The translations under genes and the position numbers were made by a program. A stretch of 64,000 nt of DNA from Muribaculaceae bacterium (GTDB lineage Bacteria; Bacteroidota; Bacteroidia; Bacteroidales; Muribaculaceae), in the NCBI GenBank assembly GCA_017427945.1, contig JAFRRT010000024.1:1-64000 (forward strand). The letters are read 5' to 3'. The notes beneath the pieces are model-generated. The model was not told the origin of the DNA. It was given only the letters and a program-made list of their open reading frames with translations, and ran no database searches. Shown here piece by piece: positions 4,074 through 52,692 of the stretch; positions within the stretch are counted from its first letter, which is position 1, and each line of letters begins with the position of its first letter.

Positions 4074-4083
4074 GCTGCGGGTA

Positions 4084-8723: not shown

Positions 8724-8748
8724 AAGAACGGACCATTTTTAGAGTTCT

Positions 8749-8786
8749 CAGAGTTCTCGGTTTACACTGAGAACTCTGATTTTTTT
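8749..8786 (+). terminator. Rho-independent terminator after the GH20 gene
   Basis: CAGAGTTCTC (8749-8758) pairs perfectly with GAGAACTCTG (8769-8778) around a 10-nt loop and is followed by ATTTTTTTG. It separates the phosphatase-GH20 pair from the SusC operon. Confidence 0.85.
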
Positions 8787-8893
8787 GTTGTGGTTTTATG
8801 TAAAAATACTTAAAAAAGTGTTGTTAAATCAAAAAGTTTAGGGATTTGAGTGTTAAAAACGTTGCAGAGTTTTAATGGAAAAAAAATAATGTG

Positions 8894-8901
8894 TAAGTTT
8901 G
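8894..8901 (+). promoter_or_regulatory. Putative -7 element of the SusC operon
   Basis: TAAGTTTG matches TAnnTTTG and lies 61 nt before the SusC start in an AT-rich leader. Confidence 0.45.
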
Positions 8902-8962
8902 TAGTTTGAATGCAGAATCACTTTTGACATTATCATTACCTAATCAATAAACCAATTTTAAA

Positions 8963-12058: not shown

Positions 12059-12072
12059 AGGCCGACTGAACT

Positions 12073-13989: not shown

Positions 13990-14025
13990 GAATTAGGGAC
14001 AAGAAACTAAAAACTGATAAAGAAT

Positions 14026-16874: not shown

Positions 16875-19448
16875 ATGAAGAAGAGATTAATCCTGATAGC
16901 ATTACTGGCGGCGTTTGCCGCCAGTTTTGTAATCGCTGTCGATGCGCCGCCCAAGCGTGAGCAGCGAGGCATGTGGATCACATCTTACCTGAATGACTGG
17001 CCCAGTGGCGCCATCACGCAAAGTAACACGCCGATCATGCAGAATGCTTGCCGCAAGATGCTTGACACGCTGCGCGTGAACCACATCAATGCGATTTATT
17101 ACCACGTCAGGGCGATGTGTGATGCGATGTACAACTCGGCTTACGAGCCGTGGTCCAGTTATGTCTCGGGCACACGAGGTGTGGCTCCTGCGTTCGACCC
17201 CTTTGAGTATCTTGTGGAGGAGGCGCACAAGCGGGGCATCGAGGTGTATGCCTGGGTCAATCCCTACCGCTATGGCCACGGTGACAACATGTGGGGACAG
17301 AGTGAGCTGGATTATGTCTATACCCATCCCGACTGGCTGCTGACAACCAGTTATGAGACGGTGCTCAACCCTGGTATTCCCGAGGTGCGTCAGCGCGTTG
17401 TTGACGTGTGTAAGGACATTCTGGTCAAGTATGATATCGATGGACTGGTGTTTGACGACTATTTCTATAATCAGGACAATCCGTCGTTTTCGCTCGATGC
17501 CAACCTGTACAACGCATACAGGGATGCTGGTGGCACGATGTCGCAGGGCGACTGGCGCCGCGAGAACGTCAACCAAATGGTCAAGGACGTCAACGACATG
17601 GTCAAAGCCACCAAACCGTGGGTACGCTTTGGCATCGGCCCTGCCGGTGTAGCGTGTACCTCACAGGCCGTAGCAAACCAGTATGGCGTGGAGCCTTGTC
17701 CAGTGGGCAGCGACTGGCAGTATAACCAGATTTACAGCGACCCGATGGCATGGGTGACACGCGGCACCATCGACTTCCTGGCGCCCCAGGTATATTGGAA
17801 AACAACGGGTACTTTCACCGGTGTCACCACCTGGTGGGGCAAGATGGCGGCAAGGTTTAACCGCCACATCTTCATCAGCCAGTGGGTACCCGACGAGGAG
17901 GGCTGGACGCTTGCCGAGTTCGTTAAGCAAGGTCATGTCATGCGTGATGCGATGGCTGCCGGCGGTAATCCCGGTATGGTCTATTTCCGCTATGGAACGT
18001 GGCGCAACAAGAAGGAGGTCATCGATGGCAAGGTGCGCCAGCTGCGCACATGGCTCAAGGACAGCCTCTACTCGACTATTGCCCTGAATCCTGCTCCCGC
18101 ATGGATCAAGCCGGCACAGACCTATACCACTGTCACGAACCTTACCTATAGCGACGGCACGCTCATGTGGGACAGTATTCCCAATGTGCGCTATGTAATT
18201 TATACCATTCCTGATGGGGTGGAGGACAAGGATTTCCGAAGTCAGGCCGAATATATCGACGGAGTGTCCTATTGGGCTTCTTACAGTTTGCCTGCCGCCA
18301 AGCGCGAGGGCTATCGCTATGCCGTGTCGATTCTCGACCGTTGGGAGAACGAGTACACACCGGTCATGCCGGGCGTGATACCTGTACAGGCCGACAAGCC
18401 AGTGCTGATTTACCCTGAGAACGGTACACAGGTGACTGAAATGTCGGTTCTGCAGTGGAGCAGCACCGCTACCAACTTTGTGGTGCAGGTATTTGCCGAT
18501 GCCCAGATGGAGTCACTGATTACCCAAATAGATGTGGACTCACCCCGTTGCCCGCTATCCAAGATTCCTTTCCTCAATGAGGGTAACTACTGGTGGCGCG
18601 TGGTGGCACGAGGGCTCAACCAGATAGACAACGTGAGCGACTTGTGGCAATTCTCATTTGGACCCATGTGCATAGTCTCACCCGGTCAAGGAGAGGGCGG
18701 CGTTCCATTGATGCCGACCATCACGTGGACGGCAGGTGGCCCGGGCACCAACTATTTGCTGGAGTTGTCCACCACTTCCAACATGAACAATCCTGATACG
18801 GTGTACTTGACCGAACCCTTATGGCAGGTACCCAGATACAAGTTGGCGGGTGCAACGAACTACTTTGTCCGTGTCACTGCCACGGCCGATAACGGCACAT
18901 CGGTGGTGACGCCAGTCAGTCAATTCACTACTGTGGAGGTAATACCTCCCGTGCCAGTGTATGTGATGCCGTTGCGTGATGGCATGGACTTGTATTATGG
19001 TGATGTGGTGCGCTTCGAGCCCGTTGAAGGCCCCGGCTCATTAAGGGTGCAGATCAGCACTTCGGAGACGTTCCCGACACGCACGTCATATAATGGAACT
19101 ATTGAGGATGCCTTCGAGACACCCCAGCTGGGAACCATCCGCGGTGCGGGCAAGTTGGAAGACGGCAAGACGTACTACACCCGTGCCCGTTATGCTTATC
19201 GCACACTTGCCACCGGTACAACGGCGCAGTATACCGACTATTGCGACATCCGTACGTTTGTCTATCACGAAACCCTCAGGGGCGACGTGAATGCCGACTA
19301 CGAAATCAACATCGCTGACATCAATGCCATCATCGACGTGATTTTGGGCAGTGGTGCGCAAGCGGGTTCGCTATCGGATGTGAATGGTGACGGCGAGGTC
19401 AATATCGCCGACATCAATATAATCATTGACCTTATCCTCAATAATTGA
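16875..19448 (+). CDS. GH10-like (GHL10/DUF187) glycosidase with C-terminal dockerin
   Basis: 857 residues. Signal peptide, then a (beta/alpha)8-type domain at about 28-400 that begins REQRGMWITSYLNDWPS and includes HKRGIEVYAWVNPYR and the acidic motif DGLVFDDYFYN (Asp194, Asp195). This is characteristic of the family that includes E. coli DigH/YddW, which cleaves denuded peptidoglycan glycan strands. Several Ig/FN3-like beta domains fill about 410-795. The C-terminus (DNA 19281-19445) is a two-repeat dockerin. Its first loop is divergent (DVNADYEINIAD, Tyr in place of the usual Gly) and the second is canonical (DVNGDGEVNIAD). Substrate could be wall glycan or another polysaccharide. Confidence 0.85.
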   Translation: MKKRLILIALLAAFAASFVIAVDAPPKREQRGMWITSYLNDWPSGAITQSNTPIMQNACRKMLDTLRVNHINAIYYHVRAMCDAMYNSAYEPWSSYVSGTRGVAPAFDPFEYLVEEAHKRGIEVYAWVNPYRYGHGDNMWGQSELDYVYTHPDWLLTTSYETVLNPGIPEVRQRVVDVCKDILVKYDIDGLVFDDYFYNQDNPSFSLDANLYNAYRDAGGTMSQGDWRRENVNQMVKDVNDMVKATKPWVRFGIGPAGVACTSQAVANQYGVEPCPVGSDWQYNQIYSDPMAWVTRGTIDFLAPQVYWKTTGTFTGVTTWWGKMAARFNRHIFISQWVPDEEGWTLAEFVKQGHVMRDAMAAGGNPGMVYFRYGTWRNKKEVIDGKVRQLRTWLKDSLYSTIALNPAPAWIKPAQTYTTVTNLTYSDGTLMWDSIPNVRYVIYTIPDGVEDKDFRSQAEYIDGVSYWASYSLPAAKREGYRYAVSILDRWENEYTPVMPGVIPVQADKPVLIYPENGTQVTEMSVLQWSSTATNFVVQVFADAQMESLITQIDVDSPRCPLSKIPFLNEGNYWWRVVARGLNQIDNVSDLWQFSFGPMCIVSPGQGEGGVPLMPTITWTAGGPGTNYLLELSTTSNMNNPDTVYLTEPLWQVPRYKLAGATNYFVRVTATADNGTSVVTPVSQFTTVEVIPPVPVYVMPLRDGMDLYYGDVVRFEPVEGPGSLRVQISTSETFPTRTSYNGTIEDAFETPQLGTIRGAGKLEDGKTYYTRARYAYRTLATGTTAQYTDYCDIRTFVYHETLRGDVNADYEINIADINAIIDVILGSGAQAGSLSDVNGDGEVNIADINIIIDLILNN
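19281..19445 (+). other. Dockerin module 1
   Basis: Two calcium-binding F-hand-like loops, DVNADYEINIAD and DVNGDGEVNIAD, each followed by an INxIIDxIL helix. It forms the C-terminus of the GH10-like protein. Confidence 0.85.
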
Positions 19449-21075: not shown

Positions 21076-22461
21076 ATGAAGAAATTATTACTTTTTGCAT
21101 TGTTTATGGCTTCGACTGTTGCGTCGGCGTGGGCTGTTACCGACGGCGTGACGTATGAACCCGTCAATGGTATCTCAATCAAGAACATGTGGATTCAGGA
21201 CCGCGCCCACACTCCCGACGTTTGGTCCAATCAACCCTATTGCAACACCAGTGCCCGTACCGCAGTGATGAAGGACGGTTACATCTACATTGCCCGTTCC
21301 AACGCCAACACGGTGATTCAAGGTACCGATACCTTGTCACAGAGTGTCATCTACAAGGTAAATGCTGCCAACGGTGAACTGGTCAAGGAATTGGCTTTGA
21401 CGCTGGACGGCAATATCTATGGTGGTGCCACATTGAGCAGCAACACTGTGGGCATGGACAACTTCGGCCACCTGTATATGGCTCCGTTCTCCAGCAACCT
21501 GGCAACCACCCAGCCAGTTTACTTGGTGGATAAGGAGACGGGTGAGCTTACCCTTATCGACGAGCTTGACAAGGGCGATGCGTTGCAGCGCTGCGACTAT
21601 ATCGACGTAATGGGTGACATCACACGTGAAGAGGCCGAGTGCAACATCATGACCGTGGGCGCCAGCTCTGAGTACATCTATCGCTGGCATGCCGACCAGG
21701 GCAGTGACTTTGAGGGTGGCTTTGACGGCGACCCCTATCTCGCTATCCTTGATTTCTATCCCGAGACTGTGACTCAGTGGGGCTATGCTCCTGTTGTGAA
21801 GATGGTGCTGAATGACGAGGAAGACTACAGTGCAGAACTATTCTATGTTGATGGTTTCTCCAGCTCTCCCATTCTCTATGACGTAACGGGTACGATGGTG
21901 GACAACTTCGAGGAGGTTGACCCTGCTTTCTGGCCCATGGACGTTGGTGCCAACGGTGTTTGCGAGTTCCATCTCGAGGGCCGCAACTTCATCGTTTTCG
22001 TGGCAGCCCAGTACACGGGTGTTGACGAGACTACCATGGTGAACAAGGCCTGCCAGGTTTACATTTGTGAGCTCGGCGAGGGTATGACCTTGGGTGGAAT
22101 GCAGCGCTACTGGATGGTGCCCGACGAGCTGGGTGCTGTCAGCGACGGTGGTACACGCGTTCAGAGCATGAACGTTGAGTATGGAACCGATGCTGAGGGT
22201 AATGAGGAAATCACCCTGTTCATCTTCAAGTGCTACAACGGTATGGCCGTCTATAAGATCGGTACCAATGTCGGTGGCGAGGATCCTAATCCTGGTGTGA
22301 AGGGTGACGTTAACGGCGACGGCGAGGTGAACATTGCCGACGTGAATGCAGTGATTGACCTCATCCTTACGGGCCGTGTAAGCGCTTCGGGCGATGTGAA
22401 CGGCGACGGCGAGGTGAATATTGCCGACATCAACTCCATCATCGACATCATCCTGAATTGA
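21076..22461 (+). CDS. Secreted dockerin protein of unknown function (paralog A)
   Basis: 461 residues. Signal peptide MKKLLLFALFMASTVASAWA, then a body of about 380 residues in which short beta-like repeats (GYIYIARSNANTVIQGTD, YLVDKETGELTLIDELDKG) suggest a propeller. It ends in a two-loop dockerin (DNA 22303-22458). No enzyme motif was recognised. The next gene is a full-length paralog with the same opening (TYEPVNGI) and the same domain order, so the pair arose by tandem duplication. It is preceded by an AT-rich leader after the Sus operon terminator. Confidence 0.75.
   Translation: MKKLLLFALFMASTVASAWAVTDGVTYEPVNGISIKNMWIQDRAHTPDVWSNQPYCNTSARTAVMKDGYIYIARSNANTVIQGTDTLSQSVIYKVNAANGELVKELALTLDGNIYGGATLSSNTVGMDNFGHLYMAPFSSNLATTQPVYLVDKETGELTLIDELDKGDALQRCDYIDVMGDITREEAECNIMTVGASSEYIYRWHADQGSDFEGGFDGDPYLAILDFYPETVTQWGYAPVVKMVLNDEEDYSAELFYVDGFSSSPILYDVTGTMVDNFEEVDPAFWPMDVGANGVCEFHLEGRNFIVFVAAQYTGVDETTMVNKACQVYICELGEGMTLGGMQRYWMVPDELGAVSDGGTRVQSMNVEYGTDAEGNEEITLFIFKCYNGMAVYKIGTNVGGEDPNPGVKGDVNGDGEVNIADVNAVIDLILTGRVSASGDVNGDGEVNIADINSIIDIILN
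22303..22458 (+). repeat. Dockerin module 2, near-identical to the one at 28853-29008
   Basis: Encodes DVNGDGEVNIAD, VNAVIDLILTG, RVSASG, DVNGDGEVNIAD. At DNA level it matches the C10 protease dockerin closely (roughly 17-19 differences over about 153 bases by eye) including the identical RVSASG linker. Confidence 0.85.
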
Positions 22462-22580: not shown

Positions 22581-23969
22581 ATGAAAAAAACATTTCTTCT
22601 TCTCTTTACCCTGTTCACGGCATCGTTTGCCGCGATGGCAATTACCGACGGACAGACCTATGAGCCTGTCAACGGCATTAAGATTGTGAACCAGTGGATA
22701 TTTGACCGCGTGCATAGCGGCACAAATTATACAAACAATGACATCTGCAACCAGCGCGCCCGTACGGCGACGATGGACCAGGGCATCATCTACGTGGCCC
22801 GCAGCGAGGAACGTGCTGTTATCATCGGCACCGATACCATTTCGCAATCAATCATCCATCGCTTCTCGGCAGCCGACGGCAGCCAGCTTGAGGACTTGCC
22901 CCTGTACCTTGACGGCGCTCCTTACGGACGTTTCCTGGGTGTAGCAAGCATCGGTAAGGACAGTTTCCACCACATTTGGGTGGCTCCCATGACCAGCACC
23001 GTGCAGCAGTATGTCCCCGTCTATCTGGTGGATACCGAGACCGGTGAACTCACGCTTGTCGTGGAACTTGACAAGGGCGATGCTCCTCAGCGCACCGACT
23101 ATCTGGATGTCATCGGTGACATTACCCTCGAGCAGGCCGAGTGCAACATCATGACCGTCTCGGGCTCGACTGCCGACCCCGGTTTCCCGACCCTTTACCG
23201 CATGCATGCCGACCAGGGCGGCGATTGGGAAGGCGGCTTTGACGGCGACCCCTATATGGATGTCATCAACTTCTATCCCGAGACTAAGACCGGTTTCTCG
23301 CTGGCTCCTGTCATCAAGATGATTGAGGGTCCCGATGAGGAATCCCGCTACAGTGGCGAGATGTTCTACATCGACTGCTTTGATACTGCGCCCGTGATTT
23401 ATGACTTCTCTGGTTCTGTCATTGACAGTTTTGAGGACACCGATCCCGAGCTCTGGCCTAAAGCTGCACCCAATGGTTGCATTGAGTTCAAACTGGAAGA
23501 CCGGGACTTCCTTGTGTATGTCACTTCCGACATGAACGGCAACGGACACGGTTGCCAGGCAAACATCTGTGAACTGGGCGAAGGTCAGTCCTTGGGTGGC
23601 ATGACCAAGTATTGGAAGATTCCCGCCGACAGTATGGGTAAGGTGAACGACAGCGGCTTGCGCGTGCACTGCTTCGCTGTGGAATACGGTGTTGACGACG
23701 AGGGCTTTGAGGAAGTGACCCTGCTCACTTTCAAGGCCTACAACGGTATGGCCGTCTATAAGATTGGCCGCAACGTGGGCGGTGTTGAGCCCCAGCCCGT
23801 TGTAAAGGGTGATGTGAACGGCGACGGCGAGGTGAACATCGCTGACGTGAATGCCATCATCGACCTCATCTTGACAGGTAAGAGCACTGCAGCAGGCGAC
23901 CTGAATGGCGATGGGGAAGTAAATATCGCCGATATCAATACGGTGATAGACTTGATATTGAAAGGATGA
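22581..23969 (+). CDS. Secreted dockerin protein of unknown function (paralog B)
   Basis: 462 residues, the same architecture as the preceding gene: signal peptide (MKKTFLLLFTLFTASFAAMA), TYEPVNGI start, shared blocks such as YLVDTETGELTLVVELDKG, AECNIMTV, then HADQGGDWEGGFDGDPY, KAYNGMAVYKIG, and a two-loop dockerin (DNA 23808-23966). Function unknown. Its stop overlaps the ATG of the phosphodiester glycosidase gene (ATGA at 23966-23969), so the two are translationally coupled. Confidence 0.75.
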   Translation: MKKTFLLLFTLFTASFAAMAITDGQTYEPVNGIKIVNQWIFDRVHSGTNYTNNDICNQRARTATMDQGIIYVARSEERAVIIGTDTISQSIIHRFSAADGSQLEDLPLYLDGAPYGRFLGVASIGKDSFHHIWVAPMTSTVQQYVPVYLVDTETGELTLVVELDKGDAPQRTDYLDVIGDITLEQAECNIMTVSGSTADPGFPTLYRMHADQGGDWEGGFDGDPYMDVINFYPETKTGFSLAPVIKMIEGPDEESRYSGEMFYIDCFDTAPVIYDFSGSVIDSFEDTDPELWPKAAPNGCIEFKLEDRDFLVYVTSDMNGNGHGCQANICELGEGQSLGGMTKYWKIPADSMGKVNDSGLRVHCFAVEYGVDDEGFEEVTLLTFKAYNGMAVYKIGRNVGGVEPQPVVKGDVNGDGEVNIADVNAIIDLILTGKSTAAGDLNGDGEVNIADINTVIDLILKG

Positions 23970-26344
23970 GAAAGTTTTGTCTTGTCCTGTCGGTCATTGT
24001 CCTGACTGTGTTGTGCGCGAGACCTGGGTTCGCGCGCGACCAGTGGGTCATTGGCGATAAGGCCTACGATGTCGATACGCTCATTTTCCCGCATCTGGCG
24101 GGACCGGGCGTCATCGCCGCCAAGTATGACATCCCGGCTTTGCCGCTCAAGGTGAGTGTGGTTGAGATGGACTTGACCAATCCCTACATGGTGATGGAGA
24201 CTTGCCTGGGCGCCGAGAAATCGGTGGGAACTGAGACCCCCGTCAACATGGCGACACGCAACACGCGCCCCGGCCACGAGGTGGTGGGCGCTGTCAACGG
24301 CGACTTTTTCATGACCTCGCCCACCAACGAGGTGGGCCTGCCTGTAAGCGGTCAGGTGCGCGACGATGAATTGGTGCTCAGTAGTCACAACAGGGCCTGT
24401 TTGGTCCTGGATGAGGCTAACCGTCCCTATATCGACCGACTGTCTTTCTCGGGACGTGTAACCAGCGGCGAGACGTCGTTTGCCTTGAATTTGGTGAACC
24501 GCATGCGTTACGCCTACGAGAATATCGCCACCAACCAGTCTTTCCTGTTCACCCGCAGCTACGGACCTACCACTTATGACGCCTCCAACTCGGGCAAAAT
24601 GCTGTTGCTACGTCCGGCGGGCGATCCTTTCAAGTGGAACGCCAACGGTGTGGAGCAGTGCATCATCGAGGACATTTTTGATGCCCACGGCTCGACAACG
24701 ATACCCGACGGCAAAGCCATCCTGTGGCTGAAAGGCACTTATGCCAACTATGTCGAGTCACTGAATGTGGGCGACGAACTGTCTATCTCCTTTAGGCTTA
24801 CTCTTAATAACGAGTCTCAGGATATCAACATCCATCAGCTCGTTGGTGGCAGCAACCACATCATCATGAAGAACGGCCAGTTCATGGAGGACTGGGCCGA
24901 GCGGCATCCCCGTACGGCTATCGGCTTCAATGCCGACAGCACCCGTCTCTACTTTGTTGTGGTGGATGGCCGTCATTTGACTTCGGTGGGTGTGACGCTG
25001 CTTGAGATGAAAGGTATCTTTGATGCGCTTGGTGCTGTCAATGCGGTGAACCTTGATGGTGGCGGCTCGTCATGCATCCTGGTCAATGGAGAGGTGATGA
25101 ACCATCCCAGCGACGGAACGGTACGCGCCGTGGGCAACGGCTGCCTGTTCGTATCAACCGCACCGCAAGACGATGAGATAGGCATCATAAGCTTTGAACC
25201 CAGGTGCTATAACCTGTCGATTTCGGCAACTACCTCGTTTGCCGTGTGGGGCTATAACCAGTATGGTGTGCTCAAGACGCGCGACTTGCAGGGTTGCACC
25301 TTCTCGTGCGACCCGCAAGTGGGATTTTTTGACGATCAGGGCTATTTCCATGCCACCTCCACACCCTCGTCAGGCAATCTCTACGTGAACTACAACGGCG
25401 TTACCGCCTCCCAGCATGTGACTATCATGGAGGCGCAGTGGCAACTCGTGAGTGATAGCGTCGTCGTCGATCAGTTTCACCCTTATTCCATCAACATCAA
25501 CGGTATCAGCGGTTATGGCTTGGATAAGGTGGACCCTTCGGTAGTTGAGTGGACCTCGGCCGATGAGAGTGTGTGCACTGTGGACGCCAGCGGTATCATT
25601 ACCGCTGTTGCCGACGGACAGACATTTGTCGGATCCACTCATCCACTGCTTGCCGACTCATTGCTCGTGAGGGTGGAAAATCCCAAAGGCCGTGTGACCA
25701 CGGTGGAGAATGCCCCCATCGACCCCGACACCTGGACTATCACCCAGAGCGGTGGAAATAACCGCACGGTGGTAGCCCTGGATCATGGTATGCAGATAGA
25801 CTTCACAGGTGCCTCGTCACGCAATCCCTACATCAAGATCGCCAAGGCGGTGCAGATGTGGGGACTGCCCGACACGTTGCGCTTTCGCATGCTGCCTGGC
25901 GATATCCAGCTCAAATCGTTGAAGATGCTTCTCGAGACAGCTTACGGTGAACGTGTCACCGTCGAGTACCCCCTTGACGGCATTACAAGCAGCGAGATTG
26001 TCATCGATGCTCCTATGACCGACATCTGTGATGCAGCCGACCTGGGCAATTTCCCCTTGCATCTGGTCTATTATTACATCACCTACAACTCACTTGTTGT
26101 GGGGCAGCAATACAGCCTCAAGATTCCCGGCATGGAACTGGTTTATGACAGCATGCCGCCCGATGAGCATCAGCCCATCTACGGTGACGTGAACTGTGAC
26201 GGCGAGATCAACATTGCCGATATCAACTCTATCATCGACATTATATTGTCGGGTGCTGCAGGCATCTCCACTGCCGATGTGAATGGTGACGGCGAAGTCA
26301 ACATCGCCGACATCAATGCGATTATCGACCTGATTCTATCATAA
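23966..26344 (+). CDS. NAGPA-type phosphodiester glycosidase with dockerin
   Basis: 792 residues. Signal peptide, then a phosphodiester glycosidase (NAGPA/DUF2233) domain at about 60-400 with VVGAVNGDFF, RTAIGFNADSTRLYFVVVDG and the signature AVNLDGGGSSCILVNG (Asp364). The family removes GlcNAc-type sugars linked through phosphodiesters. It is followed by an Ig-like (Big_2-type) stretch, a further beta domain and a two-loop dockerin (DNA 26183-26341), whose first loop is DVNCDGEINIAD. The likely site is the cell surface or outside. GlcNAc-phosphodiester substrates (wall or capsule polymers) fit the nearby GH20 and NagA, but this is inference. Confidence 0.87.
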   Translation: MRKFCLVLSVIVLTVLCARPGFARDQWVIGDKAYDVDTLIFPHLAGPGVIAAKYDIPALPLKVSVVEMDLTNPYMVMETCLGAEKSVGTETPVNMATRNTRPGHEVVGAVNGDFFMTSPTNEVGLPVSGQVRDDELVLSSHNRACLVLDEANRPYIDRLSFSGRVTSGETSFALNLVNRMRYAYENIATNQSFLFTRSYGPTTYDASNSGKMLLLRPAGDPFKWNANGVEQCIIEDIFDAHGSTTIPDGKAILWLKGTYANYVESLNVGDELSISFRLTLNNESQDINIHQLVGGSNHIIMKNGQFMEDWAERHPRTAIGFNADSTRLYFVVVDGRHLTSVGVTLLEMKGIFDALGAVNAVNLDGGGSSCILVNGEVMNHPSDGTVRAVGNGCLFVSTAPQDDEIGIISFEPRCYNLSISATTSFAVWGYNQYGVLKTRDLQGCTFSCDPQVGFFDDQGYFHATSTPSSGNLYVNYNGVTASQHVTIMEAQWQLVSDSVVVDQFHPYSININGISGYGLDKVDPSVVEWTSADESVCTVDASGIITAVADGQTFVGSTHPLLADSLLVRVENPKGRVTTVENAPIDPDTWTITQSGGNNRTVVALDHGMQIDFTGASSRNPYIKIAKAVQMWGLPDTLRFRMLPGDIQLKSLKMLLETAYGERVTVEYPLDGITSSEIVIDAPMTDICDAADLGNFPLHLVYYYITYNSLVVGQQYSLKIPGMELVYDSMPPDEHQPIYGDVNCDGEINIADINSIIDIILSGAAGISTADVNGDGEVNIADINAIIDLILS

Positions 26345-26461: not shown

Positions 26462-29011
26462 ATGAAACGAATACTATTTGTAGTAGCCATTGCGATGGCA
26501 ACGTTTTGCAGCCTTCAAGCCGCTCAGGTGGGTGAGGCGGCTGCACGTCAAGTGGCCGATAAGTTCTTTTCGGCTCACTCTTCCCAGTTAAGGGCATCGG
26601 CAGCTCAATCATCAATGCGGCTTGCCTATACAGCACAGGATAACCGATTCTATGTCTTTGACCGTGGCAGTCGCGGCGGTTTTGTGGTCGTGGCTGGTGA
26701 TGACCGCCTGCCTCAGGTGTTGGGCTACGGCGCCGAGGGTGATTTCACGGCAAACACTCTGCCCCCGTCAGTGAAATACTGGCTGGATGAGATGGACAGG
26801 CAGATTGCTTATTTGCAATCCCACAGTGGCGTATCGGCACATCAGCCTGCCAAGCAGGCGACAGTAGTAGAGCCTCTTGTGACAACCCAGTGGGACCAAG
26901 GTGCCCCCTATAACAACTACTGTCCCACTTACGGCGGCGGCACTCGCTCTGCTGCAGGATGTGTGGCTACAGCCATGTCCCAGATGATGAACTACCATCA
27001 GTGGCCGGCTGTCGGTCGTGGAAGCCATTCCTACTCCTGCAATGTGGACAATAACCCTGATAATCATGTTGATCTCGGTGTGGACTTCAGCCAGTCGGTC
27101 TATCGTTGGGACCAGATGCTTGACATCTATACTGACAGTAGCAGTGAAGAATCATGTGACGCTGTTGCCAAGCTGATGTTTGATGTGGGCGTCTCGTTGG
27201 ATATGCGCTACGGTAGCAGCAGCGCAACATCGGGCTATTTGGTTTCGGTGGCATTGGAACGTTATTTCGGCTACAGTAACAGGAGCTATTGGCTTCACCG
27301 CGACTGCTATGCTGCCGATGACTGGGACCAATTCCTGATCAATGAGATTACCAAGAACCGCCCTGTGTTGTATATCGGAACTACTATCGACACTGGCCAC
27401 GCCTTTATTCTTGACGGCATTGACGAAGACGGTTATTTCCATGTTAACTGGGGTTGGAGCGGATATTACGACGGCTATTTTCTCGTATCGCTGCTTGCTC
27501 CCATGTCAAACCTGAATTTTAGGTATAACCAGAGCGGTCTTTTCGGTCTGGTTCCCGAGACGCAGTCCGATGCTATCGATGATGTCTTCTACGTTCACAG
27601 CCAGTTGTGGGCACTCAGCCCTTCGGCACCATTGGGTTCTCAAGCCGACTTAGAGTTTGATTTCCTGACCGAGACCAACATGCTCGACACAGTAGGTTAC
27701 GAAGACTGGAATGGCGGACAGATATCCTATGCTCTGATTCCCATGAAGATGGGTTTGTATGACCAGAATGGCACCGAGATTCAGAGTCATTTGTTCACTG
27801 TTCGTAATTATATGGAATGGAATATCATTTCATCGAGTGATTCGCTTGTTTTGGATTTGCCCCAGTCGCTTGAGGATGGTGAATACCAAATCAAGGTGTT
27901 CTATTCGGTTGATGATGGTGCGACCTATGACCACCAGGTGCAGTCTTACGATGGCGGAAAAGACCTTTATCTCAAGATGATTGTGAGCAACGACACGGCT
28001 TATTTCAAGGATTGTTTCTTGCGCAAAGCCTATAGCGTGAAATCGATTGACGTGCCCAGGAACGTAAAGATTAACAAACCTTTCAACGTTGGCGTGGACC
28101 TGTCTTTCAATGCTTCATGGTTTGAAGGGGACGGGCCTATCGGCAACGTCTATCTGTCTATGCTGAAAGATGGAGTTGAGGTAGCCACCAGTCCATTGTA
28201 TGAGGTGATGGTGCCCAACAACGAGGTGAGGACTTATGTGATGCAGATTATGGCGCCATCGGAGTGGGGCCCATATACACTGGTGCTCAAAGATGAGAGC
28301 GGCAACCCCATGATGGAGCTGGATGAATGGCTTGATGCGATTGAAGAAGTTACTGCCCCTGTGTTTGTCTTGCCTATATGCCAAGAGCTTTTTGAGGACT
28401 TTGAGACCATGACGGCAAACAACAGCACAAGTGATAAAAACGTGCAGGGACGTTTCACCACATGGAATTTCAGCAAGAGTGGTGTGCGTTCTCCGGGCGA
28501 GGACCGTTGCAACGGCACAAATGCCGTCTTGATGAAGAAACCCTGTTCTTTATCTACGGCTCAACCTCTAAGCCACAACTTCATCTTGGCCCAGGCAACG
28601 TTCTTCAATCCCACTTCAACGCTGTCTAAATTCAAACTGGAGTATTCGCTGGACGGTGGCTCCTCGTGGGAGAGGGCTTATACCATCGACAGCCTTGATG
28701 TCGCTGAAGTGCCTGAGAAGAGCAAGTATCTGGCAACCTGGAATTTGAATCTGACTTCTGCCCAACCTGCCATCTTCCGCATTTCAATGATTGGCGGCGG
28801 CTCTGGAAATAACTATATCGATGATATTGCCCTGTATTACAACGATCCGTCGGGTGACGTGAACGGCGACGGTGAGGTGAACATCGCCGACGTGAATGCA
28901 GTGATTGACCTCATTCTCACGGGTCGAGTAAGCGCTTCGGGCGACGTGAACGGTGACGGCGAAGTCAACATCGCCGACATCAACGCCATCATCGACATGA
29001 TTTTGTCTTGA
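26462..29011 (+). CDS. C10 family (streptopain-like) cysteine protease with dockerin
   Basis: 849 residues. Signal peptide, then a propeptide (about 20-125, including GGFVVVAGDDRLPQVLGYG), then the C10 catalytic domain. The nucleophile is Cys167 in SAAGCVATAMSQMMNYHQWP and the catalytic His313 is in GHAFILDGIDE, followed by YFHVNWGWSGYYDGYF. Beta-rich domains occupy about 370-790, and a dockerin ends the protein (DNA 28853-29008). The dockerin DNA and its RVSASG linker are almost the same as in the unrelated protein at 21076, which points to recent module copying. Streptopain relatives degrade host proteins or act in competition. Confidence 0.92.
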   Translation: MKRILFVVAIAMATFCSLQAAQVGEAAARQVADKFFSAHSSQLRASAAQSSMRLAYTAQDNRFYVFDRGSRGGFVVVAGDDRLPQVLGYGAEGDFTANTLPPSVKYWLDEMDRQIAYLQSHSGVSAHQPAKQATVVEPLVTTQWDQGAPYNNYCPTYGGGTRSAAGCVATAMSQMMNYHQWPAVGRGSHSYSCNVDNNPDNHVDLGVDFSQSVYRWDQMLDIYTDSSSEESCDAVAKLMFDVGVSLDMRYGSSSATSGYLVSVALERYFGYSNRSYWLHRDCYAADDWDQFLINEITKNRPVLYIGTTIDTGHAFILDGIDEDGYFHVNWGWSGYYDGYFLVSLLAPMSNLNFRYNQSGLFGLVPETQSDAIDDVFYVHSQLWALSPSAPLGSQADLEFDFLTETNMLDTVGYEDWNGGQISYALIPMKMGLYDQNGTEIQSHLFTVRNYMEWNIISSSDSLVLDLPQSLEDGEYQIKVFYSVDDGATYDHQVQSYDGGKDLYLKMIVSNDTAYFKDCFLRKAYSVKSIDVPRNVKINKPFNVGVDLSFNASWFEGDGPIGNVYLSMLKDGVEVATSPLYEVMVPNNEVRTYVMQIMAPSEWGPYTLVLKDESGNPMMELDEWLDAIEEVTAPVFVLPICQELFEDFETMTANNSTSDKNVQGRFTTWNFSKSGVRSPGEDRCNGTNAVLMKKPCSLSTAQPLSHNFILAQATFFNPTSTLSKFKLEYSLDGGSSWERAYTIDSLDVAEVPEKSKYLATWNLNLTSAQPAIFRISMIGGGSGNNYIDDIALYYNDPSGDVNGDGEVNIADVNAVIDLILTGRVSASGDVNGDGEVNIADINAIIDMILS
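28853..29008 (+). repeat. Dockerin module 5, near-identical to the one at 22303-22458
   Basis: Same loop-linker-loop protein sequence up to INAIIDMIL, with largely synonymous DNA differences relative to the first copy. Confidence 0.85.
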
Positions 29012-29980: not shown

Positions 29981-31933
29981 ATGTTAATTATGGATAATCA
30001 CATGCATTTTTCTGCTCCTTGGTTCAGGAGGCTGAAAGTATTGGCAATGGTGCTCTTGACGACTTTCTTGTGTGCTCAAGCCGATGTCTTTTTGACCTTC
30101 ACCAACGGGCACGTTTATGTCTTCCCCAATGACTGCATCTCGGGAATGGTGACAAAGAATGGAAAGCTTACCATCACCGACCTCAGCGGGAAGGAGTACT
30201 CTTATTCCATTTCTAACCTCAACTCAGTTGACTACCAACTCAACAAGACCTTGCCAGACCTCACGTCTTTCAAATTCAACAACGAGTATAATTACCAAAT
30301 GGTGGATGATGTCGAGGCAACCATTTCCGACAATGAGGTGAACGTCGAGGTTGCCGGTATCGGCAAATGGCTGACGGCGACATATCTGCTGTCGGACGAA
30401 GAGGCGAGGGCCTATGCCGACGGCAAGGAGATGGAAAGCAAGGTGAGTCGTATGTCCTATGCTGCCCCGAGGGTGATTACCGTGGGTTATCCTGGTGACC
30501 TTATCTTGACTTTGATGGAGGGGGGACAATATGGCTTCATGCCTTTTGGCAAGGATTATGTCGTCAATGTCGATTTCTTGACCGATCATGCCACTACGGT
30601 GCCGCGCATCGACATCAATACAGTGGGTGGCGTGAACATCACCAGTAAGGAATATTATCTGGATGCCGAAATCATAATTGACGGAGCCGGTGTGTTCCCG
30701 TCGATGACCGACTCGGTTCAGATCAAGGGCCGTGGCAACAGTTCCTGGTCTTCCAACCCCAGGGCCAAAAATCCTTACCGTCTCAAGTTTGCTACTAAAA
30801 AGAAGCCACTGGGTCTGCACAAGGGCAAGAATTGGGTGCTCATTGCCAACAAAATCTATGGCTCGATGCTCACCAATGCCTATGGCATGAAGGCAAGCAG
30901 CCTGATAGGTACACCTGCTGTCAACCATATCATTCCCGTTGATCTGTATATTAACGGCACCTACAAGGGTAATTATAATTTCACCGAGAAAGTGGGATTC
31001 TCCGACAACAGTGTTGACCTTGCCGACGAGACAGTGGCAACCTTGCTGGAGCTCGACAAATACTTTGATGAGGACGAGGGCCAGAAGTTCAGGACAACGT
31101 CCTATGACCTGCCGGTCAACATCAAGAGCCCCGACTTTGCCGAGGATGTCACGTTCCTCACGTTCGACATGATTGAGTCACGCTTCAACGATATGATTAC
31201 AACTGTTGAGAATGGAGGTGACATCAGTGAGCATGCCGATATGGATGCTCTTGCGCGTTACATGCTGGCCAACGAGCTGATTGGCAACAAGGAGATATTC
31301 CACCCCAAGAGCACTTTCTGTTACCACGAGAACATGTTGGCCGACAGCTGCAAATTCATCTTCGGCCCGATGTGGGACCTCGACTGGGCGTGCGGCTATT
31401 TCGCCAATACCGCCTCCAGCTACTTCGTCAAGCTGATTGACATGGACTTCTTCAACATTGACTATGATGACGGACTCATGTATGTGTTCTTCAACCTCCT
31501 TAATCAGGATAGAAAGGTGTTGCGTCAATTGTATGAAGTGTGGAAACCGTTCATGGAAGAGGGCCGTATTGACGAGTTGTGCGACTTCTGTACAGAATAT
31601 GTCAATTATACCAACCCTTCGTTGGTGAAGAGCAGAACGGCCTATGCCGATAATACCGACTATATTGAACAATCCAATAAAGCCGTCAACTGGCTCAGGT
31701 CAAGGGCTAATCTGATTTATGACCGCCTGAGGGCCTTCATGCAGTCGGTGGGCGACGTGAACAACGATGGCACGGTATCAATCGCCGATGTCACTGCACT
31801 TATCGATTATTTGCTGAGTGGCAATGCCCAATCGATTAGTCCGGACAATGCCGATGTTGACGGTGATGGCCATGTCACCATCAGTGATGTGACTGCATTG
31901 ATCGACTTGCTGTTGACCTCGACGAACGCTTGA
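29981..31933 (+). CDS. CotH-family secreted protein with dockerin
   Basis: 650 residues from the first ATG. Starts at 29990 or 30002 are possible. A signal segment (VLAMVLLTTFLCAQA) is followed by a short beta domain (about 35-90), a spacer, and a CotH domain with IKGRGNSSWSSNPRAKNPY, NWVLIANKIYGSMLTNAYG, GNYNFTEKVGF and the metal-site motif FGPMWDLDWACGY. It ends in a dockerin (31751-31930) of a different subtype from the others: SIADVTALIDYLL and TISDVTALIDLLL instead of NIADxNxIIDLIL. This may imply a different binding partner. It is related to the dockerin-less CotH lipoprotein at 19474. Confidence 0.87.
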   Translation: MLIMDNHMHFSAPWFRRLKVLAMVLLTTFLCAQADVFLTFTNGHVYVFPNDCISGMVTKNGKLTITDLSGKEYSYSISNLNSVDYQLNKTLPDLTSFKFNNEYNYQMVDDVEATISDNEVNVEVAGIGKWLTATYLLSDEEARAYADGKEMESKVSRMSYAAPRVITVGYPGDLILTLMEGGQYGFMPFGKDYVVNVDFLTDHATTVPRIDINTVGGVNITSKEYYLDAEIIIDGAGVFPSMTDSVQIKGRGNSSWSSNPRAKNPYRLKFATKKKPLGLHKGKNWVLIANKIYGSMLTNAYGMKASSLIGTPAVNHIIPVDLYINGTYKGNYNFTEKVGFSDNSVDLADETVATLLELDKYFDEDEGQKFRTTSYDLPVNIKSPDFAEDVTFLTFDMIESRFNDMITTVENGGDISEHADMDALARYMLANELIGNKEIFHPKSTFCYHENMLADSCKFIFGPMWDLDWACGYFANTASSYFVKLIDMDFFNIDYDDGLMYVFFNLLNQDRKVLRQLYEVWKPFMEEGRIDELCDFCTEYVNYTNPSLVKSRTAYADNTDYIEQSNKAVNWLRSRANLIYDRLRAFMQSVGDVNNDGTVSIADVTALIDYLLSGNAQSISPDNADVDGDGHVTISDVTALIDLLLTSTNA

Positions 31934-32033: not shown

Positions 32034-32663
32034 ATGAAGCACTTTTTTGTGACGTTGTTGGCCGTGACATCGGCTTTGATAGGTATGGCAGGTAATAACC
32101 GTGTCATCGTCGAGGATTTTGAGATAATGGGTGATTCGGCCTTGTCGGTGCCTGTAATTCTCGTCAATGAGGATCCGACGCGAGGTTTTCAGTTCAATAT
32201 CACGTTGCCTGATGGACTTGATCTGGAGGATTGCTCCATTCCTAAGGATGTCATGGATGATTTTGACATGAGGTTTGTCTGCAATTATATCTCTCAGGAT
32301 TCTTGCTACCAGATCATCATTTATCCGGGATTCCGCATTTGCATCGAACCCGGCACCTTGTTGGCGTTTTATCTCCACTTCATAGCTGATTCCGACTTCA
32401 AGGGTGGGAAAATCAAGATATGGAAATGCTTGGGCTCGACGATTGACAATGAAACCTACCCGATGGATGGCTGCACGGTGAATGTGACGGTGCCTACCAG
32501 TTCACTTATCAAGGTTCCTGTGGATACTCAGCCTAGCGACGAACGCTACTTCAACCTTATGGGGCAGCCCCTGTCGTCGCCTGCCAGTGCTCCCGTTGCC
32601 ATTCTTGTCACGACAACGCCTGATGGACAGCACAGCAGCCGTAAGGTGTCGGTAAGACATTGA
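32034..32663 (+). CDS. Secreted cohesin-like single-domain protein
   Basis: 209 residues from the ATG at 32034 (an ATG two codons earlier is also in frame). After the signal peptide (MKHFFVTLLAVTSALIGMAG) there is one domain of about 140 residues whose pattern matches a cohesin: ALSVPVILVNEDPTRGFQFN, ITLPDGLDLEDC, then IEPGTLLAFYLHFIAD, GGKIKIW, and a closing CTVNVTV strand. The C-terminus (RYFNLMGQPLSSPASAPV ... SVRH) resembles short Bacteroidales surface-sorting tails. It is the last gene of a 16-kb stretch with six dockerin proteins, so it is a candidate receptor for them. The cohesin assignment is by pattern only. Confidence 0.6.
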   Translation: MKHFFVTLLAVTSALIGMAGNNRVIVEDFEIMGDSALSVPVILVNEDPTRGFQFNITLPDGLDLEDCSIPKDVMDDFDMRFVCNYISQDSCYQIIIYPGFRICIEPGTLLAFYLHFIADSDFKGGKIKIWKCLGSTIDNETYPMDGCTVNVTVPTSSLIKVPVDTQPSDERYFNLMGQPLSSPASAPVAILVTTTPDGQHSSRKVSVRH

Positions 32664-44268: not shown

Positions 44269-47200
44269 ATGAAAAAGATGATGAAATATATCGTCCGTAT
44301 AGCCGTGTCCGTTCTGGTAATGGCTTGCTTTACTTTTCCTGGTTATGCGCTGGACAAGAGTTTCTATGCCGATTCCAGCCGTCTTGCTACCGGTAAATGG
44401 GTGAAGGTGGCAGTCACCGAGAGTGGCATTTACCAAATTACAGCCGATGACATCCGCAGTTGGGGACTGGGCACTGACCTGTCACAGATCCATGTCTTCG
44501 GTTACGGTGGCGCGCCGTTGAGCGAGATAATGTCAGGCGACAATTATGCCGACGATCTGCCTCAAATGCCCATTGTAAGGACTGGTGACCGCATCCTGTT
44601 CTATGGACAGGGAAACCTCAAATGGACTGCGCTGGACAATGAATTTCAACAAGTGCAGGAACAGCATCCGTATGCCAAAGCAGGTACTTACCTGATTACC
44701 AACGACAGCCGTTACAGCGATGTTGAAATCAATAAGGCCACCAACGACGTAGCCGGAGATGTGGTGACCACTTACATCGAGCGCCTCTATCATGAACAGG
44801 ACATCATCAATCCTGGTGAGACCGGCAGGACTTTTCTCGGCGAAAGTTTTTTGACCAATAAGTCACAGACGTTCAAGTTCACGCTCGATGGACTCGTGAA
44901 TGGCAGCACTGTAAAAGTCTATACTGTATTTGCCGCACAAACGACAGGTGACTTCAGGAGTACTGTCAGCACAGCCTACAATAACACTCCGCTGACCGAC
45001 ACCGGCTCTGATATGATTGATCCCGTGTCGTCCCTGTCTCATGACCACTACTATTTATCTCGTTCATGGAAGCCTTTCAAACTTGAAGGCACCAATGAAC
45101 TCAACTACACTGTGAGCTTTAAGGGACAAGGTACAATTTATCTCGCGCGCCTTGACTTTATCACGGTGAACTATGAACGCAATCTGGCGTTGAAGAGTGG
45201 TAGCCTTGTGTTCGGCTTGAATAATGCAAGTACGGCCTCGATCTACCGAATTTCGAGTGCAGGTGCCTCTACCCGCGTATGGGACGTGACACAGCCTTTT
45301 GCTCCAGTGCAAATGAGTGTAAAGAGTGGCGACGGTACGGTGGAATTCACTCCAGGAATCAGTGGCAGAAGGGAGTTTGTGGCCTTTGACGAATCAGGGA
45401 CTTATCTCCACCCCGAGTCGTTGGGAGAGGTTTCCAATCAGAACATACATGGCGAGCCAACCCCCGACATGATTATCATTGCCCCGAGTGCCTATCTTGA
45501 GCAAGCAAGGCGTGTGGCAACCCTGCATGAGAAATTAGACAACTTCAGGGTTCTTGTTATCGACCATGAGAAAGTTTTCAATGAGTTCTCAAGTGGTACG
45601 CGAGATGCTATGGCCTACCGCCGCATGTGCAAGATGTTCTATGACCGTGGTAAAGACAATGAGGGACATGCCTTGGGCTATCTGTTGCTCATGGGTGCTG
45701 GCAGTTATGACAACCGCCTGATCGGCACCAGTGCCGATGCCTTGAAATATCCAAGCTTGCTCACGTGGCAGACCGTAAGAGGTGATATGGAGAATTATTC
45801 TATCACCACCGACGACTTCTTTGGTATACTTGGCGACGGCAGCGACATCTCCAATATGGGAATAATGAATATCTCGGTGGGACGTATGCCGGTCAAGAGC
45901 GTGTCCGATGCCCGTACGGCAGTCAACAAACTCGAGAAATACATGACCAAACCATCTTATGGGTCATGGAAGAATCAGTTGATGTTTGTAGCCGATGATG
46001 AAAACGATGGTGATCACATGACACAATCCAAGGACATGATTGCCGCTATTCGTCAAAATGGTGGTAACGATATGGTCGTTAACTATGTTTTCATCGATGC
46101 CTTCAATCATGTTAGCCAGGGTGGCGCACGCAATTATCCTGATGCCCGCAACAAGATGTTCACCACCCTCAACGAGGGTGTTCTATGGTGGAATTATATA
46201 GGACATGCCAGCACACAGAACTGGACCGGTGAGGGTTTGATGATGCGCTCTGATGTCGAGACAAATCTTTATTACCGTCATCTGCCGGTACTGTATGCCG
46301 CTACCTGTGAATTCATCCGTTTTGACGGTTCTGTTATATCAAGTGGCGAACGCATCTTCTTGAACGCCAATGGCGGTGCCATTGCAGTGGTGTGCCCTGC
46401 ACGATTGGCATTCATCGACTTGAATGGCCCATTCAGCGAGAGGGTGGGACGGTATGTGCTCTTGCCCGACGAGAATGGACGTCAGCGTCGCCTGGGTGAT
46501 ATCATCCGTACGGTGAAGAATGACCCAGGACCTTCGTCTAACAATCACAGGCGCTTCTTTGTCATGGGTGACCCTGCGATGAGGATAGCGTGGGCTCCTT
46601 ATTCGGTACAGGTCGAAACCATCAACGGAAAGCCAGTAGATAGCGAGGATATGCCTGTATTCAAAGCGAGGGAACAACTGGAGTTCAGCGGTAAGATTGT
46701 AGACCGTAACGGTGAATTGGCGACCAACTTTGACGGCAACGTCATCTCAACGCTTTTTGGCCCCGAGCAGTCAGTGACTACCCACGGCAATGGCAATGGT
46801 GTGCCTGTGACATATCTGGACCGCCCCAACCGCTTGGCAATTAATGTTGATACTGTTTCTAACGGCCGTTTCACGGTGCGTGTCATTATCCCCAGCGAGG
46901 TGAATAATGAGTATGATGATTTCAGCCCGTCACTTATCAACCTGTATGCCTATGACAGTCGCGATACCCTTGAGGCCAAAGGCTCTAACAGTTCCTTCTG
47001 TATTTACGGTTATGAAGATGATGCGGTGACTGATACCATTGGTCCTCGAATCATCACTCTTGGCCTCAACGACGAAATGTTTGTCGATGGCAGTGATGTC
47101 AACGAGTCGCCGTTGATGCTTGCTACTGTGAGCGACGAGAGCGGTGTGAACTTTTCTTCGGCTGGCATCGGTCACAGCATGACGTTGACCCTGGATGGCA

Positions 47201-47700
47201 ACAACAGCTATAATGACCTGGTAAGCTATTATACCCCGCAATTTGCCGATGTAGGCACGTTGGGCTCCATCAACTACCAGCTGAGAGACTTGACTCCTGG
47301 CCCGCACACGTTGCGTCTGCGCGTGTGGGATGTATATAACAACATGAGTGAGAAGACCATCTCTTTCAATGTTGTCAATGGCTTGGCGCCTGAGATTTCG
47401 GATGTCTATTGTGCCAATAATCCAGCCTCGGTAGAAACTTCTTTCTACGTGAAGCATAACCGTCCCGATGCCGTGGTAAGCGTGACCATCGAGGTCTATG
47501 ACCTCATGGGCCGCATGGTATGGAGCACCACACAGGCAGGTCGTAGCGATATGTATACCTCTGTTCCCATTACTTGGGATCTCAACGATGCGGCAGGCCG
47601 CCGTGTGCCCCGAGGCATATATGTCTATCGCGCCACGATTTCGACTGATGGCGTTAAGGAAGCCACTAAGGCCAAAAAACTCGCTGTAACAGGGGAATAA
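44269..47700 (+). CDS. porU: PorU-like C25 family cysteine protease / T9SS sortase
   Basis: 1143 residues. After the signal peptide (VRIAVSVLVMACFTFPGYA) comes the PorU-type start (SSRLATGKWVKVAVTESGIY) and beta domains. The C25 catalytic domain follows, with MIIIAPSAYLEQARRVATLH, the catalytic His646 in YIGHAST and Cys680 in AATCEF. The C-terminal third has Ig-like domains and a FlgD-like end (ITWDLNDAAGRRVPRGIYVY). PorU cleaves the sorting domain of type IX cargo and attaches it to the surface. A second PorU-like gene lies at 49237, so which of the two is the true sortase is uncertain. Confidence 0.78.
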   Translation: MKKMMKYIVRIAVSVLVMACFTFPGYALDKSFYADSSRLATGKWVKVAVTESGIYQITADDIRSWGLGTDLSQIHVFGYGGAPLSEIMSGDNYADDLPQMPIVRTGDRILFYGQGNLKWTALDNEFQQVQEQHPYAKAGTYLITNDSRYSDVEINKATNDVAGDVVTTYIERLYHEQDIINPGETGRTFLGESFLTNKSQTFKFTLDGLVNGSTVKVYTVFAAQTTGDFRSTVSTAYNNTPLTDTGSDMIDPVSSLSHDHYYLSRSWKPFKLEGTNELNYTVSFKGQGTIYLARLDFITVNYERNLALKSGSLVFGLNNASTASIYRISSAGASTRVWDVTQPFAPVQMSVKSGDGTVEFTPGISGRREFVAFDESGTYLHPESLGEVSNQNIHGEPTPDMIIIAPSAYLEQARRVATLHEKLDNFRVLVIDHEKVFNEFSSGTRDAMAYRRMCKMFYDRGKDNEGHALGYLLLMGAGSYDNRLIGTSADALKYPSLLTWQTVRGDMENYSITTDDFFGILGDGSDISNMGIMNISVGRMPVKSVSDARTAVNKLEKYMTKPSYGSWKNQLMFVADDENDGDHMTQSKDMIAAIRQNGGNDMVVNYVFIDAFNHVSQGGARNYPDARNKMFTTLNEGVLWWNYIGHASTQNWTGEGLMMRSDVETNLYYRHLPVLYAATCEFIRFDGSVISSGERIFLNANGGAIAVVCPARLAFIDLNGPFSERVGRYVLLPDENGRQRRLGDIIRTVKNDPGPSSNNHRRFFVMGDPAMRIAWAPYSVQVETINGKPVDSEDMPVFKAREQLEFSGKIVDRNGELATNFDGNVISTLFGPEQSVTTHGNGNGVPVTYLDRPNRLAINVDTVSNGRFTVRVIIPSEVNNEYDDFSPSLINLYAYDSRDTLEAKGSNSSFCIYGYEDDAVTDTIGPRIITLGLNDEMFVDGSDVNESPLMLATVSDESGVNFSSAGIGHSMTLTLDGNNSYNDLVSYYTPQFADVGTLGSINYQLRDLTPGPHTLRLRVWDVYNNMSEKTISFNVVNGLAPEISDVYCANNPASVETSFYVKHNRPDAVVSVTIEVYDLMGRMVWSTTQAGRSDMYTSVPITWDLNDAAGRRVPRGIYVYRATISTDGVKEATKAKKLAVTGE

Positions 47701-52200: not shown

Positions 52201-52692
52201 GACAACGGAAAAGTCTCTTACGGCGATGTAATGAGCTATGCAACCTTGTCCGATGGTACCAAGGTGGTCAACATCGAGTATCCCTTGAGCAACCTTGCAA
52301 ATGGCTTGCACACGTTGGCCTATACCGTCTTTGACGTTGTGGGTAACTGCACCACTCGCACCATCTCCTTCATCGTCGGTGAAGGCGGTAATGTTTCGCT
52401 TATTGCCGATAAGCTGCCCGCATTCAAGGGACAGGAAGTGAACTTCGACATCGATTCTGACTTGGCTCGCACTCCCGAGGTGATTGTACGCGTGACCGAT
52501 GCTACTGGCAATCTGGTATGGATGACAACAACCAGCAACTTCCCTGTTGCATGGGATTTGAAGGACATGAATGGCAACGCAGTTCCTGCTGGCCTCTACC
52601 GCTACTTCGGTACCTATAATGATGGCACCAATTATGGTGGAACGCCCATCAACAAGCTCATCGTGCTCGATGCCTTGAAGACGGCGAACTGA
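49237..52692 (+). CDS. Second PorU-like C25 family cysteine protease
   Basis: 1151 residues, the same architecture as the protein at 44269. The start SSKLATGKWVKISIPEDGMY aligns with the first, and the C25 core has MLIITCKDFMEQAQRLADMH, FNEFSSGTRDGMAYRMMCKM, His656 in VGHAG and a Cys pair 689/690 in TACCDV. The Cys at 690 aligns with Cys680 of the first copy. The His-to-Cys spacing (34 residues) is the same in both. It ends in a FlgD-like domain (VAWDLKDMNGNAVPAGLYRY). It may be a second sortase or a surface protease. A strong terminator follows. Confidence 0.8.
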   Translation: MFKLSKIQLACTAFLAIFCASYASAFSSTSYATSSKLATGKWVKISIPEDGMYEITYNELRSMGFNNPAQVKVYGCGGHRINEVLDGSAPNDLVAVPILRANNKICFYGNGPVAFSISNFNTMPHFTRNFNSFSQVGCYFLTEESGADTTPANKPTVTVYQYVNTPTSLNYVIHENELATISRSGKDMLGEQFSNGELFIDCTLPGLADSTIVVQTSIAAAVSKLSYANAVIHSGGASDSTVYPVNSSRIYAPSSAVYYNSASPYGEVKLTHPTEQIQFEPMLTFSTTTDLEITMSRLDYFILTYKQQNIIRPSADNQLLMGYAMTSGTERFQLPNASSNTVVWSIDNSNAPKVVTTKSYSDESGEGLCFFASGTSMSLYVAFDPTKTLKKIIKFEDVPNQNLHAMPIPDMLIITCKDFMEQAQRLADMHAAIDGIDVAVVDHEQIFNEFSSGTRDGMAYRMMCKMFYDRDTDHNKFKNLLIFGPGSFDNRELLGEHPKNLLTYQSDNSNYQDFSYTTDDFYGFLDDQSGSNIANEKLRIGVGRITCADADEAKSDVDKIIEYYTNPDYGVWRNNTLVFSDGHDDHKYLFQGDRFKGMIDNELSTGMHVNTVHNTMYPRSTTETAYDVSRRTATVAKQQLGDFFKDGMYFGTYVGHAGPFVFTKTNNMWNISDVASNSYPHLPIMTTACCDVAHYDNDTRGIAEYMFHKPDGGAIALFTTSRMVYADYNYQLNKYFINELFSYHKNGVMPTLGEAYMRAKHGFTVSNMNKLSFFLLGDPAMKFNYPISRFNVTMVNGTNVTDSAAMATISPLSQFEIKAQVVDADGNLDRSFNGDATVTLYDKEEFFATVTGSDNNMTVDRDVYFNRAKLTELTGRVTNGVFTGTMIAPKSVLAKNETVLLRVYAHKDNTDYMVNGSTQQVTMLPFDETQAITDNIAPVVTSMYINDEASFNNGAAVGSSAMLYITATDDQAISVQSNSIEYGMSLILDNGKVSYGDVMSYATLSDGTKVVNIEYPLSNLANGLHTLAYTVFDVVGNCTTRTISFIVGEGGNVSLIADKLPAFKGQEVNFDIDSDLARTPEVIVRVTDATGNLVWMTTTSNFPVAWDLKDMNGNAVPAGLYRYFGTYNDGTNYGGTPINKLIVLDALKTAN

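Follow-up and report, generated by a model that had tools for sequence, protein, structure and literature searches.

Dockerins in the place of type IX sorting tails in two protein families, and divergent cohesin-like domains, in a genus of Muribaculaceae

Results

Six dockerin genes and the surrounding genes in the window

The window, that is, the whole stretch of DNA analyzed here, spans 64,000 nucleotides (G000:C18:1-64000) of a Muribaculaceae genome, G000, that consists of 39 contigs (2.77 Mb in total) and is 96% complete. Six genes on the forward strand encode proteins with a C-terminal dockerin: a GHL10 glycosidase-like protein (16875..19448, dockerin 19281-19436), a secreted protein of no known family (21076..22461, dockerin 22300-22452) and its paralogue (22581..23969, dockerin 23805-23957), an NAGPA phosphodiester glycosidase (23966..26344, dockerin 26180-26335), a C10 peptidase with a Spi inhibitor domain (26462..29011, dockerin 28853-29005), and a CotH protein (29981..31933, dockerin 31751-31915), the last encoded directly upstream of a gene for a cohesin-like protein. 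In all six, Dockerin_1 (PF00404) is recognized above the curated cut-off of 22.9 bits, and the stop codon follows each dockerin within five residues. An earlier note on this DNA had described six proteins that end in dockerins and had named their partner domains, and Pfam confirms it on both counts. A second CotH protein of the window (19474-20889) has no dockerin.

The DNA of the dockerins at 22300-22452 and 28853-29005 and of a third one elsewhere in the genome (G000:C8:85762-85914) is 83-88% identical in pairwise comparisons, compared to only 46-49% for the 200 nt upstream of the same three dockerins, a contrast that points to exchange of the module or to gene conversion.

The dockerin cluster is preceded by a block of GH20, SusC, SusD and PKD genes. 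The GH20, SusC and SusD genes lie in the region 933-14000, where the ORF at 933-2156 presumably encodes an N-acetylglucosamine-6-phosphate-deacetylase-like protein; this region is possibly a locus for GlcNAc-containing glycans. Downstream of the cluster, also on the forward strand, the window encodes the type IX secretion sortase PorU (44269..47700; NF033707, 944.9 bits against a cut-off of 420) and a second sortase of the PorU family (49237..52692; NF033707, 702.8 bits, same cut-off), about 1.5 kb apart. It is suggestive that the sortase is doubled in a genome where sorting is altered. The two type IX components that we looked for in the genome, SprA and PorU, are both present, with an E-value of 1e-187 for SprA_N. 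Together with SusC/SusD, they mark the genome as one of Bacteroidota, and Bacteroidales is the likely order, as the earlier note had assumed. Besides the long SprA frame, there is a second SprA_N match that contains one internal TGA (G000:C22:85553-86131).

A small secreted protein with a divergent cohesin-like domain

About 100 nt after the stop codon of the dockerin-bearing CotH gene, the ORF at 32034..32663 (forward strand) encodes a predicted secreted protein of 209 aa that combines a signal-peptide-like start, one divergent cohesin-like domain and a type IX-like tail. Taken alone, this protein matches no Pfam family (cohesin, PF00963, included) and no NCBIfam family at E≤1; a phmmer search of the PDB with it found no cohesin, and a scan against genome contigs returned a sole match, to the tail, in RUG434. 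Residues 6-66 match a Cohesin-Cohesin-Dockerin protein encoded on contig C6 of the same genome (33% identity, E 0.0028), in which PF00963 finds both cohesins, the first one above the cut-off. A profile of three domains (that of the window protein and the two of the C6 protein) picks up the repeats in a 919-aa protein of a sister genome. A larger profile, A1, comprises 24 domains including that of the window protein and covers the window domain at 32094..32492 (profile positions 2-135; E 1.6e-34, a value reached by construction because A1 was built with this domain among its rows).

When compared to the PDB, A1 retrieves cohesins as its first five matches (5n5p, E 1.5e-6, followed by 6kgc, 6kg8, 2xdh and 4uyp, E 0.002 to 0.012). 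The first ten matches of A7, a profile of 53 domains, are cohesin entries as well (5n5p, E 9.8e-5; tenth match, E 0.013), where we count the NagJ entries as cohesins. All these matches are weak, with E-values from 1e-6 to about 0.01, and some of them are fragments. Presumably, 2jh2, 2ozn and 2vo8 are the cohesin domains of NagJ/NanJ from Clostridium perfringens; these cohesins, which are among the PDB matches of A7, are non-cellulosomal, and the NagJ/NanJ system, unlike the one analyzed here, has a small number of enzymes and is not known to use type IX secretion. Pfam cohesin (PF00963) recognizes 15 of the 53 A7 members at E≤0.01, and no other family matches more than two of them. A single-sequence AlphaFold2 model of the window domain consists mostly of strands, at a low pLDDT of 38. 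The identification of this domain as a divergent cohesin homologue is fairly well supported by the profile comparisons.

The tail of the window protein (32529..32660), which contains the motif YFNLMGQ, appears to be kin, at the level of profiles, to type IX type A sorting domains: hhalign aligns it to type IX sorting domains (91%, E 1.1e-6). Alone, the tail matches neither TIGR04183 nor any other NCBIfam family at E≤1, and NCBIfam likewise recognizes none of four tails taken from small cohesin proteins of other genera. In its own genome, the tail (approximately residues 165-209) shows weak similarity to six other places (E 0.009 to 0.3), and it is related to the tail of a 692-aa protein encoded on contig C28 and to others. 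The earlier note had read this protein as a cohesin with a sorting-like tail and had proposed a comparison to PF00963. This reading holds for the profiles, which retrieve PDB cohesins first and align the tail with sorting domains, but not for the single sequence, which goes unrecognized by both PF00963 and TIGR04183.

Dockerins and cohesin-like domains across the genome

With 150 of the 221 first-look candidates scored, the genome contains at least 136 PF00404 dockerin places in 135 ORFs. The start is signal-peptide-like, by a simple rule, in 128 of the 135, and PF00404 is found at E≤1e-5 in 121 of the 134 dockerin ORFs that were scanned. The A1 profile detects five clear cohesin-like domains in four proteins (that of the window protein, two on C6 and two on C28) and a sixth, partial match (E 1e-4). 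No protein of this genome has more than two A1 domains; in G060 and G135, from the same genus, a 919-aa frame combines six A1 domains with a dockerin. Beside the cohesin genes of C28 lies the gene for a 545-aa protein (9227-10861 of locus L073) that, by eye, starts with a cohesin-like region and ends in a tail of the window type, and is not reported by the A1 profile.

The earlier note envisaged a local mini-cellulosome and a single cohesin-like receptor, and proposed a search of the genome for additional genes of both kinds. The placement of a cohesin-like protein beside dockerin proteins stands, whereas the single receptor gives way to five cohesin-like domains in four proteins, and a local complex is too small a frame for a genome with so many dockerins. 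That the window cohesin holds only the six neighboring dockerin proteins is suggested by the gene neighborhood and is nevertheless highly improbable, given the 135 dockerin ORFs of a similar pattern genome-wide and the four further clear cohesin-like domains.

For the domains joined to dockerins, the ORFs were scanned at E≤1e-5 in sets of 63 and 71, some of the ORFs being cut, and the counts refer to the 25 commonest families listed for each set. LRR_5 was found 13 and 14 times, C10 peptidase 7 and 10 times, CotH 4 and 4 times, and M6 peptidase 4 and 2 times, respectively; alpha-amylase accounts for 5 of the 63 and GHL10 for 3 of the 71, and there are single cases such as peptidyl-arginine deiminase. 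The mixture of peptidases, glycosidases and CotH proteins that had been noticed in the window is supported.

Dockerins where sorting tails stand in other genera

We searched 149 genomes of the family to which the source genome belongs, 10 of these from its genus, with the C10 peptidase and the NAGPA protein of the window, each without its dockerin. For each query, the best match per genome was taken in 30 genomes; these are best matches rather than proven orthologues. For both queries, the outcome was the same: a dockerin at the end of the protein in 8 of 8 readable loci from the genus and in 0 of 20 from other genera, the remaining 2 of 30 being cut. Of the 40 tails from other genera, 36 were scanned, four near-duplicates having been omitted; TIGR04183 (type IX type A sorting) was detected at E≤0.01 in 33 of the 36, and PF18962 in 30. 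Hence, in these two cargo families, the dockerin of the genus stands where the sorting tail stands elsewhere, and this difference between genera is well supported. Its presence in every readable genome of the genus also speaks against a complex confined to the window.

All 10 genomes of the genus are rich in dockerins (39-40 of at most 40 scored), compared to 0-6 per genome in other genera, with the exception of G001, which has 30. By the number of Por_Secre_tail matches, the genus (3-12 per genome) cannot be told apart from many others. In G122, seven consecutive genes with near-identical dockerins occupy C3:28000-45000.

The sorting tail itself is found in the genus on cohesin proteins. Each of the 10 genomes encodes at least one Dockerin-Cohesin-tail protein, mostly of about 680 aa, with the dockerin identified by motif. 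Sixteen such proteins were picked out and the tails of 14 were taken; 13 of the 14 match TIGR04183 at E≤0.1 (best, 4.9e-7), and the profile of these tails aligns to the sorting tails of other genera with 97.5% probability. The copy in the source genome has an LRR-like N-terminal part. Another protein of this genome, at G000:C21:35746, contains both modules: a sorting-like tail of 73 aa comes after its dockerin.

The position of the dockerins bears on how they might function. In the frames as first read, at most 20 residues separate the dockerin from the frame end in 108 of the 136 places (two of them at contig ends), and more than 20 in the other 28. Twenty of the ORFs ran past the stretch first read; downstream DNA was added for 17 of these, 2 of which are still open. 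Among these 28, 18, including one doubtful partial match, start within 80 residues of the initial methionine; by eye, the domains that follow include sulfatase-modifying-factor-like and CotH-like ones. A C-terminal sorting signal cannot work in the N-terminal position, and a binding module can. Accordingly, it is quite unlikely that the secretion machinery directly reads the dockerin as a new kind of type IX sorting signal, with the cohesin-like domains being unrelated to it, even if many dockerins do occupy the C-terminal position of the absent sorting tail, as would be expected of such a signal. Besides the N-terminal dockerins, this explanation is at odds with the cohesin proteins with internal dockerins, which still have a sorting tail, and with the occurrence of cohesin-like domains near dockerins in other genera.

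Dockerins near cohesin-like domains outside the genus

Outside the genus, 29 genomes yielded a cohesin-like match, and the loci were examined in 21 of these. In 17 of the 21, a dockerin lies at the same locus and on the same strand as the cohesin-like domain, within 0.8 kb in 16 genomes and in the same reading frame in 12; in the other 4, there is no dockerin near the cohesin-like domain. Of the 31 cohesin loci, some of which overlap and which total 290 kb, 23 contain a dockerin, compared to 0 of 42 control loci from the family (193 kb), the control loci being shorter on average. The local dockerin profile was trained mainly on the source genome, with nine rows from other genomes including G042, G053 and G068, so that the pairing in these three is not an independent observation. 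In G068 and G099, each with one PF00404 dockerin, the gene for a cohesin with a tail directly follows the dockerin gene, as it does in the window. Genomes with a cohesin-like match but no PF00404 match seem at first sight to be counter-evidence; in several of them (G018, G046, G065, G128 and G139), the local profile finds dockerin-like repeats near the cohesin. With the same profile, no dockerin-like repeats were found near the cohesin in G027, G062, G110 and G113, the G062 locus being a short contig end.

The two modules also tend to occur together. Among all 149 genomes, cohesin-like domains are present in 39, dockerins in 41 and both in 25; among the 139 genomes outside the genus, the corresponding numbers are 29, 31 and 15 (Fisher p 7e-5, tree not controlled). 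This co-occurrence, the nearness in 17 genomes and the prevalence of cohesins among the best PDB matches make it unlikely that the dockerins bind another receptor or each other and that the cohesin-like domain, as a general beta-sandwich, has nothing but its ancestry in common with cohesins. Such an arrangement would nevertheless account for the four genomes where the pairing was not seen, and for G001, in which the 30 dockerins are accompanied by no cohesin-like match and the C10 protease retains its sorting tail. The same can be said of the disparity between five clear cohesin-like domains and 135 dockerin ORFs. All three points count against docking on cohesins as well.

Within one genome, the dockerins of different proteins are more alike (58% identity, n=6) than those of the same protein across genomes (41%, n=56) or those for which both protein and genome differ (40%, n=58). 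In the source genome, two sub-dialects, TALID and NAxID, are common; the motif with which the repeat units were cut out for this comparison requires I, V, L or M in position 10 and either D or N in position 12, so that the conservation seen in it is partly a matter of construction. Dialects specific to a genome fit one common receptor per genome; the same pattern would result if the dockerins had spread recently through duplication or gene conversion.

Discussion

What the sequences show directly is the tail difference in two protein families, SprA and PorU, the domain architectures, and dockerin genes near cohesin genes. We find it plausible, and on balance rather probable, that these observations reflect the docking of dockerin-bearing cargo on cohesin proteins that type IX secretion anchors at the cell. 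Under this docking model, many secreted enzymes, LRR proteins and peptidases of the genus would carry a dockerin in place of the sorting tail, as seen in the two families compared, and the dockerin would bind a divergent cohesin. Some of the cohesin proteins, namely the Dockerin-Cohesin-tail proteins and probably the 209-aa protein of the window, would retain the type IX tail, exit through SprA and be fixed to the surface by PorU, and the cargo would thereby be displayed on them. Cohesin-Cohesin-Dockerin proteins could be adaptors. We infer the binding and its specificity, the export route, the display at the surface and the matching of cohesins to cargo from the sequences.

A bolder extension of the docking model is piggy-back export, whereby tailed cohesin carriers would take their bound dockerin cargo, itself devoid of a sorting tail, with them through the type IX pore and across the outer membrane, and what began in the family as a module of one or two genes would have become a sorting code that spans the genome and differs in dialect between species. 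This is a speculative and rather doubtful scenario; if it were true, a handful of tailed carriers would serve a large part of the secretome.

The docking system has a close conceptual precedent in Cloacimonadota. The available part of the report on Ca. Stygibacter describes a cellulosome-like complex with dockerins on glycosidases and peptidases, so that mixed cargo has already been published, and a cohesin scaffoldin whose conserved C-terminal domain is proposed, with reference to type IX, to attach it to the surface of its own cell (PMC8542988). As in the genus analyzed here, the dockerins on these enzymes are C-terminal and a cohesin protein has an attachment domain at its C-terminus. Unlike in our case, that part of the report names few dockerin enzymes and a single 3,755-aa scaffoldin with tandem cohesins and CBMs; here, there are 135 dockerin ORFs and mostly proteins with one or two cohesins, together with the cross-genus comparison of dockerins to sorting tails. 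In Ruminococcus-type systems, too, many dockerins face few cohesins, and anchoring by a single cohesin is proposed for R. albus in the portion of PMC6118326 that was available. In contrast to these systems, we are dealing here with a Gram-negative cell with type IX secretion, and LRR proteins and C10 peptidases recur among the cargo.

Closer to the present genomes, in the available sections of PMC7260996, the role of dockerins in Bacteroidetes is called unclear, no recognizable cohesin is reported in the dockerin-bearing genomes of that study, and it is suggested that the cohesins of Bacteroidetes may be too distant to recognize. According to the corresponding sections of PMC6071333, Bacteroidetes bins have at most 11 dockerins each, and two of the bins contain cohesins: Bin129 has two, and Bin136 has one along with five dockerins. 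Compared to the genus studied here, these rumen Bacteroidetes have far fewer dockerins per genome, and the sections available from the two papers make no link to type IX sorting. In the excerpted text of PMC7480376, dockerins of undefined function are mentioned in two Prevotella genomes, and that of PMC5831590 reports neither cohesin nor dockerin in the type IX genome under study. Among the open-licence papers searched, we found no publication that describes a dockerin standing in for a sorting tail.

Divergent cohesins beside dockerins, together with dockerins that take the place of sorting tails in two protein families, make the role of the dockerins of Bacteroidetes testable. These findings suggest that, in this phylum, a plug-and-socket pair can take over surface attachment from the sorting tail.
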